Below are positions 25,767 through 28,133 of a stretch of 28,723 bases of DNA, one piece after another. The notes beneath the pieces were generated by a model that saw only the letters and a program-made list of their open reading frames with translations, ran no database searches and had not been told where the DNA came from. Position numbers and translations under genes: made by a program. The first letter of the stretch is position 1, and each line of letters starts with the position of its first letter. This stretch comes from a virus, in IMG/VR virus record IMGVR_UViG_3300017963_000641, positions 1-28,723 of that record; one strand, 5' to 3'.

Positions 25767-26398
25767 GCAAAATAACTATCCACACCGACATCCATCAACG
25801 GAGCGAACAATGGCACGAAATCAGATTAGGACGTGTTGGCGGTTCTGAATCGATTGTGTTATCTGTCAAAGGCAAATCCGCATCCGGACTTGGAGCGGCT
25901 GCGTTTACTTCATTATACGAAAAGGCATTCGAGATAAATGAAAAAAAACCGGTCAAGGAAAATATCGTTACTTTTGAAATGCAGCGCGGTATTGACCTTG
26001 AACCAGAAGCCATACACGAATACGAATTGCATAAGATGGTAAAGGTAGATCAAGTCGGGTATATTCTTAATTCCGATATGAAATACGCTGGTTATAGTCC
26101 GGACGGATTAGTAGGCGAGGATGGATTGATAGAAGTCAAATGCCCGGGCAATTCCGAATTTATGCGACAGATAATTACTACGGAGATTCCGAAGCGGTAT
26201 CTGTGCCAAATTCAATGGGGTATGTTATTATCGGATCGGAAGTGGTGCGATTATGTCGTATATAATCCGGATTACACCAAATCGCCTTTGTATGTTGACC
26301 GAGTAGATAGAGATGATAAAATGATTGAAATCTTAAAATCAAATTACCTTGCGTTTGAATCGGAGCTGGATGCGATTTTGGAAAGAATTAGAAAATAA
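25763..26398 (+). CDS. YqaJ-type exonuclease (lambda exonuclease family)
   Basis: A 211-aa nuclease of the PD-(D/E)XK fold that would digest one strand of double-stranded DNA ends for recombination. Motifs in order: QRSEQWHEIRLGRVGGSES (the 'W...R....t.S' motif), RGIDLEPEA (residues 75-83, with the conserved Glu), SPDGL (D114), IEVKCPG (E124, K126) and CQIQWGM (149-154). It is the end of the operon with the SSB-like gene. No RecT/Erf-type annealing protein is seen, so that function may lie with one of the unknown partners. Confidence 0.88.
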   Translation: MSKITIHTDIHQRSEQWHEIRLGRVGGSESIVLSVKGKSASGLGAAAFTSLYEKAFEINEKKPVKENIVTFEMQRGIDLEPEAIHEYELHKMVKVDQVGYILNSDMKYAGYSPDGLVGEDGLIEVKCPGNSEFMRQIITTEIPKRYLCQIQWGMLLSDRKWCDYVVYNPDYTKSPLYVDRVDRDDKMIEILKSNYLAFESELDAILERIRK

Positions 26399-26441
26399 GT
26401 TTGCAGACTTATAGAATTAGAAAATAAGGTTATAGACTAAT
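26384..26441 (+). repeat. Two-copy 29-bp tandem repeat at the end of the exonuclease gene
   Basis: AGAATTAGAAAATAAG occurs at 26384-26399 and again at 26413-26428, and the following 13 bases are similar, giving 25 of 29 identical positions. The first copy encodes the last residues of the exonuclease and its stop. The second is non-coding leader of the next gene. It looks like a small local duplication. Confidence 0.7.
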
Positions 26442-26455
26442 AAAATTAAAACAGT

Positions 26456-26692
26456 ATGACACCATTACAGATTTTACTTCAACACGAAAAGGATCTTACA
26501 CGAATGTTTGATTCAGATACCAAAGTAGCATTATCGCTTTTGGACACGATTCGGAAAACAGGTAAGCAATTAATTCAAGATGAGAAACATATCATTGAGG
26601 AAGCGTTTGAGAACGGGATATGGCATTATGAAAATACCGGATTAAATGCGACTGAATATTATGAAAGGGAATTTAAAACTGAAGCAATATGA
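26456..26692 (+). CDS. Small accessory protein, 78 aa (MTP/EYY type)
   Basis: A 78-aa helical, acidic protein (MTPLQILLQHEKDLTRMF at the start). The end, DEKHIIEEAFENGIWHYENT plus GLNATEYYEREFK, carries an 'A(F/W)(E/Q)(N/D)G...YY' pattern also found in the 98-aa protein at 28130-28426. I have seen similar tiny proteins in many flavobacterial phages, where they are hypothetical. It is the first of a run of small genes and overlaps the next by ATGA. Confidence 0.6.
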   Translation: MTPLQILLQHEKDLTRMFDSDTKVALSLLDTIRKTGKQLIQDEKHIIEEAFENGIWHYENTGLNATEYYEREFKTEAI

Positions 26693-26907
26693 CACCAAAG
26701 GAAAAGGCACAAGATTTAGTTAATCAATTTAGAATGGTTTTAATGAATGAAGATACCGAATGTGGTAATGAAATGCTTTGTACTTCAATAGCTATTAAAA
26801 ACGCATTGATTTTAGTAAAAAACGTAAAGGATTTTGCTAATCCTTGTTGTATTTCTGATAGTGTGAAATATTGGGAAGAAGTAAAAAAAGAAATAGATAA
26901 GTTATGA
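26689..26907 (+). CDS. Small accessory protein, 72 aa (MTPKEKA type)
   Basis: A 72-aa helical protein that begins MTPKEKAQDLVNQF and ends YWEEVKKEIDKL. The 75-aa protein at 27554-27781 has the same start (MTPKEKATELANKF) and the same end (FWKQVKVEINAL), so the two are paralogues. Function is unknown; the form, two or three helices, suggests a protein-binding role. It overlaps both neighbours by four bases (ATGA). Confidence 0.6.
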   Translation: MTPKEKAQDLVNQFRMVLMNEDTECGNEMLCTSIAIKNALILVKNVKDFANPCCISDSVKYWEEVKKEIDKL

Positions 26908-27408: not shown

Positions 27409-27544
27409 TACGCATAACGGTTTGTGTATGGCAAGTAGCCGATTGAACGCACTAACCTTTGATAGAAGAAATTAATTTATAAACACGCAAATAGTTTAAT
27501 TACAGCCCAATAACGGCTATTTGCTATACACTTTGTTATAGGGC
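27409..27544 (+). repeat. Long imperfect palindrome, attC-like element 1
   Basis: A 136-base non-coding element. Its outer arms can pair: ATAAC..GTGTATGGCAAGTAGCCG at 27414-27440 with CGGCTATTTGCTATACAC..GTTAT at 27514-27539, with few mismatches and a small bulge. A second inner pairing (ATTAATTTATAAAC with GTTTAATTA) is possible. The left end is TACGCATAAC and the right end GTTATAGGGC. I recall similar dispersed palindromes from Bacteroidota genomes, but cannot verify that here. The only ORF inside (ATG 27428, 15 codons) is not credible as a gene. Confidence 0.65.
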
Positions 27545-27830
27545 GTTTTTATTATGACACCAAAAGAAAAAGCAACGGAATTAGCAAACAAGTTTGTTAG
27601 AAAATCAGTATTTGATATGGATGATAACAAACTAAAAGAAGAAAGATTACAAGCAAAAAAATCAGCACTTATTTGCGCTGATGAATGTATAAAGTTAGCT
27701 AACCTTATGGATGGTGGATTTTCATTTGAAAAAGAAATTGAATTTTGGAAACAGGTTAAGGTTGAGATAAATGCCCTATAACGATTAAAGTAATAACTGT
27801 GTAGCGTAGCGGTATTGTTATTAATGCTGT
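27535..27830 (+). mobile_element. Integron-cassette-like module with one gene
   Basis: The 296-base interval runs from the GTT at the right end of palindrome 1 to the base before the GTT at the right end of palindrome 2. Its first ten bases, GTTATAGGGC, are exactly complementary to GCCCTATAAC at 27773-27782, where its own palindrome starts. It holds a single ORF without obvious promoter, and the ORF's stop lies inside the start of the palindrome, all as in integron gene cassettes. The end boxes keep the AAC/GTT triplets but depart from the classical GTTRRRY. No integrase is in the window. Confidence 0.5.
27554..27781 (+). CDS. Small accessory protein, 75 aa, cassette-borne (MTPKEKA type)
   Basis: A 75-aa helical protein, paralogue of the 72-aa protein at 26689-26907 (shared start MTPKEKA, shared end pattern W..VK.EI..L). 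The middle differs, with KSALICADECIKLANLMDGG. The ATG stands 19 bases after the GTT of palindrome 1, preceded by GGGCGTTTTTATT. The stop codon TAA (27779-27781) is part of the GCCCTATAAC box. The function is unknown; the same small family thus exists both in the ordinary operon and in a cassette-like setting. Confidence 0.6.
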   Translation: MTPKEKATELANKFVRKSVFDMDDNKLKEERLQAKKSALICADECIKLANLMDGGFSFEKEIEFWKQVKVEINAL

Positions 27831-27840
27831 GTTATGCGTA
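27773..27840 (+). repeat. Short imperfect palindrome, attC-like element 2
   Basis: A 68-base element, GCCCTATAAC at the left and GTTATGCGTA at the right. Inside are two pairs of inverted boxes: ATAAC at 27778-27782 with GTTAT at 27831-27835, and TAATAAC with GTTATTA closer in, separated by 8 and 7 bases. The centre contains GTAGCGTAGCGG. Size and box arrangement are like those of integron attC sites, where two box pairs fold into a hairpin. Confidence 0.6.
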
Positions 27841-27857
27841 TTTTAAAATTAAATAGT

Positions 27858-28133
27858 ATGAAACCATATAAATTAAAACATCATCCTACTGGATTGTATT
27901 ATCAACCTAAATCAGGTTTAAGTAAGAAAGGAAAGATTTATCAAACAGAATCAAATGCTTTGAAATATTTTACTGGGCACACCGTAACGATTTCAATAGA
28001 CATTACTAAAAAACAATTTGCACCTTTTAAGGATTATTTTGATAGATTAAAATCTGAATTTTCAGATGTGTTGCAACATAGAACGAATACATATTTAATC
28101 CCTAAACAACATTTTGTAAAAGAAGAGATATGA
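27858..28133 (+). CDS. Small phage protein of the 'KHxPTGLYYQP' type, 91 aa
   Basis: A 91-aa basic protein with the phrases YKLKHHPTGLYYQPKSG and LSKKGKIYQTESNALKYF, which I remember from many small hypothetical proteins of Bacteroidota phages. The remainder is HTVTISIDITKKQFAPFKDY and YLIPKQHFVKEEI. Two starts are in frame. The ATG at 27834 lies inside the palindrome end; I prefer ATG 27858, which has the A/T-rich leader AAATTAAATAGT and gives the usual beginning MKPYKLKH. The stop overlaps the next ATG (ATGA). Function unknown. Confidence 0.6.
   Translation: MKPYKLKHHPTGLYYQPKSGLSKKGKIYQTESNALKYFTGHTVTISIDITKKQFAPFKDYFDRLKSEFSDVLQHRTNTYLIPKQHFVKEEI

Follow-up and report, generated by a model that had tools for sequence, protein, structure and literature searches.

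A phage gene cassette and the integron-like recombination system of Bacteroidota, with a probable compact XerA-like recombinase, to which it probably belongs

Introduction

In integrons, the tyrosine recombinase IntI adds one-gene cassettes at the attI site beside its own gene. The cassettes have complementary start and end boxes, and their attC sites are hairpins with the crossover at AAC (GTT). The IntegronFinder 2.0 survey found integrons to be almost absent from Bacteroidetes (PMC9024848). Qi et al. (2023) reported attC sites and clusters in phages, including Polaribacter phage P12002L, and IntI1 recombined P12002L_attC2 in E. coli from the bottom strand, with no recombination from the top strand (PMC9892861). 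In the integrons of Treponema, the recombinase and the cassette genes share one strand, and transcription of intI runs towards attI, the same way as that of the cassette genes (PMC3607928). The Xer enzymes XerA, XerC and XerD resolve chromosomal dif sites, and a hairpin of the Xer-using phage CTXphi is recombined without an IntI-type extra domain (PMC4792948).

Herein, we analyzed a linear virus record of 28,723 nt (28.7 kb; the window), which has terminase and major capsid genes. A sequence-only reading had seen in it a module resembling an attC-bearing integron cassette. Comparison with related loci indicates that this feature is very probably a single gene cassette that belongs to an integron-like recombination system found in Bacteroidota and in their phages, with a compact XerA-like enzyme as the probable recombinase. 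The system has one-gene cassettes, complementary boxes, hairpin sites, an AAC (GTT) crossover and a tyrosine recombinase with addition beside its gene at an attI-like site, all as in integrons. Unlike in integrons, the recombinase has no IntI-specific insertion, the boxes are 9-10 nt long and rarely of the form GTTRRRY, G-T wobbles replace extrahelical bases, the hairpin is 5' of the gene and the genes face the recombinase. As in Treponema, the recombinase and the cassette genes are on the same strand; here, however, the recombinase gene follows the array on its 3' side, with transcription leading away from the attI-like site. In size, sequence and fold group, it resembles XerA, XerC and XerD, but it is gene-cassette arrays, not dif sites, that adjoin its gene; as with CTXphi, a phage hairpin would be recombined by an enzyme that has no extra domain of the IntI type. 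No description of this cassette system was found in the literature searched (without preprints and most subscription journals).

Results and Discussion

Parts of the cassette in the window

Four 10-mers, complementary in pairs, had been noticed in the sequence, and our analysis bore them out. The features of the locus are the following.

27409..27418, plus strand: end box (R''-like) TACGCATAAC before E1; sequence pairs with 27831-27840, with an AAC junction as in the Freya phages
27419..27534, plus strand: hairpin site E1, attC-like, class 1; from the fold, the family descriptor and model R1
27535..27544, plus strand: start box (R'-like) GTTATAGGGC, from the sequence; it opens the leader GTTATAGGGCGTTTTTATTATG, which precedes several different ORFs elsewhere
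27554..27781, plus strand: cassette ORF, 75 aa, PHROG 21441 (unknown function); stop codon inside the end box
27773..27782, plus strand: end box GCCCTATAAC, by sequence the exact complement of the start box 27535..27544
27783..27830, plus strand: hairpin site E2, degenerate family member; from the fold and an R1 match at 27777-27837
27831..27840, plus strand: start box GTTATGCGTA, by sequence the complement of 27409-27418
27419..27782, plus strand: proposed mobile unit, E1 with gene and end box; from the Freya junctions and units common to unrelated phages
27834..28133, plus strand: ORF, 99 aa, whose start lies in the outer start box; no match in the family search

With their boxes, E1 covers 27409-27544 and E2 covers 27773-27840. 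In the stem of E1, GTGTATgGCAAgTAGCCG (27424-27441) pairs with CGGCTAtTTGCtATACAC (27514-27531), extended by an outer ATAAC/GTTAT, and G-T wobbles occur at 27430 with 27525 and at 27435 with 27520; E2 folds into a 7-bp stem plus ATAAC/GTTAT. Compared with shuffled sequences, the folding energy was exceptional for neither element (z of -1.55 for E1 and -0.28 for E2), and the significance of the hairpins comes from comparison, not from folding energy. E1 matched the family descriptor with zero mismatches and scored 71.8 bits with model R1; as the training set of R1 includes E1, this score is in part by construction. E2 gave a marginal match to R1 (18.2 bits, E 0.1, 27777-27837, plus strand), weak but at the expected place and on the expected strand.

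The 296-bp module first described is a real span (27535-27830), but it equals the gene plus E2; from box to box, the module measures 248 bp, with a gap of just 9 nt between the start box and the ATG. Related loci imply that the mobile unit would be E1 plus the gene (27419-27782). The outer boxes (27409-27418 and 27831-27840) would form one site once the unit is taken out, which agrees with the earlier view that the outer ends are complementary and that one palindrome would be left after removal of the module. Neither of the window boxes GTTATAG and GTTATGC fits GTTRRRY, and the suggestion of a variant system, made on the same ground, is supported by our data.

Class 1 sites were found around none of the 22 viral relatives of the cassette protein, and the gene family is therefore not tied to cassettes. 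A similarity search with the protein adjoining E2 found no relatives, and an Rfam search at the place of the hairpin and the cassette gave no convincing family.

A widespread family of hairpin sites

A search of public collections with the right arm of E1 matched 26 IMG/VR contigs and 3 GTDB genomes. The sequence-only reading had proposed a search for copies of the palindromes with other ORFs; copies of the E1 stem exist, with different genes and boxes on both sides. By sequence comparison, E1 belongs to a widespread family of hairpin sites, in which AACG and TGTT enclose a stem that has G·T wobbles at two fixed positions. The full plan reads AACG, spacer, TATg NNNN gTNGC ... GCNAt NNNN tATA, spacer, TGTT, and the stems vary. 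When both mismatch positions of the descriptor were set to each letter pair, G-T gave 47 sites (about 27 with the stem by which loci were picked, the remainder without it), A-C, the reverse complement, gave an equal number, and the others gave 0-2.

Model R1 was built from 21 sites, among which 12 pairs are changed on both sides, a count that leans towards structure because the sites were selected for pairing. The aligned stems of sites so selected are symmetric, with two G-T positions and no one-sided extrahelical bases of the attC kind. Symmetric pairing was also checked without this selection: in a search by sequence in which complementarity was not required, the 4-bp segment was fully complementary in 88 of 126 pairs, with 21 different segments. 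The core box GTTRRRY/RYYYAAC is not a property of the family, R' fitting GTTRRRY in 9 of 156 sites (4/89 in phages and 5/67 in chromosomes).

A second hairpin class, with apical CGTTTTAATG, was observed in 74 copies in the same arrays (L062-L121, e.g. L069:9281 and L073:7924; L002:3253). Its stem reaches at least 10/12 in 63 of the 74 copies, and 63/63 are on the recombinase strand. For three permuted 10-mers, the copies add up to 6.

Movement of whole units among phages

A relative of the recombinase is encoded by the cultured Polaribacter phages Freya_1-10, all from a single host strain. Comparison of seven Freya isolates revealed the presence or absence of whole units, with gain or loss exactly at AAC. 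Units of 842, 902, 472 and 307 bp are found at AAC|, where the stretch that leads to the integrase begins; an internal unit of 902 bp is present or absent as well. A unit extends from after one AAC to the next AAC, and the junctions have an overlap of 3-11 nt that ends in AAC. Phages with no other relationship share units of 354, 485 and 802 bp at identities of 99, 93 and 95%, respectively; the limits of these units are at AAC, and their flanks are unrelated. Given these limits in the Freya phages and in unrelated phages, the hairpin lies 5' of its gene. The length difference between the phages Danklef_1 and Danklef_5 lies outside the array.

Box pairing, polarity and cargo

Complementary start and end boxes (R'/R'') were found as in integron cassettes. 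In 67% of 58 units, the start box and its own end box have at least 5 complementary bases beyond GTT/AAC, against 3.2% within one hairpin and 1.8% for random pairs; about a third of the intervals fail to pair. Once sites of the second hairpin class are counted too, pairing is seen in 46% of 70 intervals (controls, 3.3% and 4.6%). A 9-nt box and its exact complement bound 62 units, of median length 407 bp, and the longest ORF is on the site strand in 59/59 units. Since so many intervals do not pair and half of the recombinase loci have no class 1 site under the strict descriptor, other sites are probably still missed.

Modules opening with GTTATAGGGCGTTTTTATTATG (or one T fewer) close with TAAATGCCCTATAAC or a near variant and contain clearly different ORFs, and other modules have other box pairs. 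E1-type hairpins retain the leader GTTATAGGGCGTTTTTATTATG, while the upstream gene and box vary. Since the hairpin moves with the downstream gene, the cassette polarity is reversed with respect to classical integrons: the genes point to the recombinase, instead of an attC 3' of the gene and transcription away from attI. The earlier interpretation thus stands as to a cassette-type mobile gene with GTT/AAC boundaries, but not as to an attC that follows its gene, the hairpin travelling with the downstream gene and not the upstream one. Among the genes carried are DNA methyltransferases of the C5 and N6 types, as well as an RNA ligase.

A common leader up to the ATG and a common end box, around different ORFs, were also observed in the window (27535-27553) and in L032, L033, L042, L044, L047, L049 and L052. 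Such an exchange of ORFs within one leader and tail bears on the origin of cassettes.

Recombinase and attI-like site

In two MAG contigs with sites (L051 and L053), which look like phage contigs in their gene content, a 263-aa tyrosine recombinase adjoins the sites. Among 60 viral loci with relatives of this recombinase, 60 class 1 sites were found in 30 loci, all on the recombinase strand; there were none in the reversed-sequence control and none in 124 kb of other viral loci. Relative to the recombinase, 52 sites are upstream and 2 downstream, even though more downstream DNA was examined, and 54/54 are on its strand. R1 matched 35 of 40 whole recombinase-bearing records; terminase was above the cut-off in 9 of the 40, including records of 246-362 kb.

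The gene of the recombinase, of about 263 aa, closes the array at its 3' end and adjoins an attI-like site, AAC|TATNATATAT. A loose pattern detected this motif in 43 of 52 cases, at a distance of 41-91 nt ahead of the recombinase. The end box directly before TATNATATAT is the exact complement of the start box of the last cassette in about half of the loci tested. The Freya sequence deviates (ACCCCTATAACAAC). A primary site comparable to attI is thus indicated in related loci, by the motif and by the gain and loss there in Freya phages, and not in the window.

The recombinases scored 116-196 bits with TIGR02249 and 162-206 bits with NF040815, below the IntI cut-off of 265 and the cut-off of 220, respectively. 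Their profile aligned to IntI4 (2a3v) in two pieces, with about 33 intervening residues versus about 81 (about 48 missing), whereas it aligned in one piece to XerA, XerC-like and XerD proteins; the additional domain specific to IntI was not found. The catalytic R, K, H, R, H and Y are retained on a compact Xer fold, as in Xer-type enzymes. The fold was predicted with a mean pLDDT of 84.8 and a pTM of 0.65, and XerA was the best match by E-value with IntI4 soon after, a search that is supportive at most because domain placement is uncertain. Phage 'integrases' of this type are currently taken as signs of lysogeny (PMC8776804).

No relative of these compact XerA-like recombinases was found within the 28.7-kb window fragment, and the mover of the window cassette is for this reason inferred. 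A host integrase or an undescribed recombinase had been considered; the enzyme was likely a compact XerA-like recombinase encoded by a phage or a chromosome, and not a known IntI.

Distribution in bacterial genomes

Sites (E 1e-5 or better) were detected in at least 78 of 296 Bacteroidota genomes, with few candidates scored per genome, and in 2 of 249 Pseudomonadota genomes, one of them a Methylophaga MAG. In the chromosomal arrays that were sampled, as many as 13 sites share a single strand within 20 kb. A recombinase was seen in some of the sampled array regions and not in every one; where seen, it was mostly at the 3' end, and some are of a 393-aa type convergent with the array.

Relation to classical integrons and other explanations

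R1 found sites between and beside the methyltransferase genes of P12002L, which are therefore probably the same sites as the published attC. The gene positions suggest that the tested P12002L_attC2 is probably a family member. Several minus-strand R1 matches were seen in the methyltransferase region of P12002L (L158, 31114-39712), exceeding the two attC tested (PMC9892861).

That IntI1 recombined one P12002L attC in E. coli (PMC9892861) would be in keeping with a fragment of a classical integron array (CALIN), i.e. ordinary attC cassettes that the phage acquired and that depend on a host IntI for movement, as would the cassette logic, the attC-like hairpins and the GTT/AAC core. We regard this as unlikely, since GTTRRRY is rare in R', the aligned stems have no one-sided extrahelical bases, the gene orientation is reversed, and the array recombinase has no IntI-specific insertion and falls below the IntI cut-off. 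Moreover, the canonical attC sites published for phage TJE1 gave no match to R1, and Bacteroidetes are nearly free of integrons (PMC9024848). If IntI, GTTRRRY and attC polarity are what defines the integron family, the system falls outside it. It is very improbable that no dedicated recombinase takes part and that genes are shuffled when repeated hairpins recombine by homology or by single-strand annealing. Phages do recombine by annealing, similar stems are repeated in many arrays, and E1 and the leader are common to different ORFs; but in the Freya phages the junctions fall at AAC next to the integrase and overlap by only 3-11 nt, the sites are strictly co-located and co-oriented with the tyrosine recombinase, and an attI-like motif is present.

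Another reading takes the elements as the termini of a transposon or MITE flanked by target duplications, which had been named among the findings that would contradict the cassette. Long imperfect inverted repeats do surround a short module, with copies in many genomes. Against this, Freya units join with an overlap of merely 3-11 nt ending in AAC, and the sites hold one strand relative to the recombinase. The boxes pair within a unit and differ between units, and are therefore neither fixed ends nor constant target duplications; with boxes specific to each unit, this reading was rejected as having almost no probability.

Proposed mechanism and implications

These comparisons leave an integron-like working of the system well supported at the sequence level. 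Each cassette has three parts: a hairpin site, a single gene that is usually short, and an end box. Because its start box (GTTNNNNNNN) and end box (NNNNNNNAAC) are complementary, circularization of a cassette would extend the hairpin to a complete, long site. The compact XerA-like tyrosine recombinase at the 3' end of the array would then probably catalyze the joining of the folded single strand of the circle to the attI-like site 5' of its own gene, with the cut within AAC, and the same enzyme would remove cassettes again. The fixed G-T wobbles, which are A-C on the opposite strand, may mark the strand for use, as the extrahelical bases of attC do. We infer that the same system placed the cassette in the window.

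In our judgment, there is an even chance that this is a second, separately evolved integron-type system, with a XerA-like enzyme without the IntI extra domain, folded single-stranded DNA sites with G-T wobbles, reversed polarity, and a home in Bacteroidota chromosomes and phages. Integrons are hardly found in Bacteroidota (PMC9024848), and a widespread cassette system there, carried by phages, would give them a route to trade small genes, possibly counter-defence genes; DNA methyltransferases are among the cargo. Since the enzyme has no IntI extra domain, the system also bears on the origin of single-strand cassette recombination from Xer enzymes. The cultured Freya phages render it testable.

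Phage context of the cassette

Relatives of the exonuclease of the window match the window up to about position 26,807 and diverge beyond, in agreement with the placement of the cassette in a phage accessory region. No empty site, i.e. a cassette-free version, was found among these relatives. The 10-nt box TACGCATAAC is also present near the contig end of a relative of the window phage (L179:10509). A 29-nt direct repeat lies in tandem at 26384-26441, at the end of the exonuclease gene. A PHROG 21441 paralogue of the cassette gene was observed 865 bp upstream (26689-26907), where no adjoining hairpin site was found. Four neighbouring ORFs, at 26456, 26689, 27554 and 28130, begin with ATGACACC(A/G or C) in a similar context (repeats D1 and D3).
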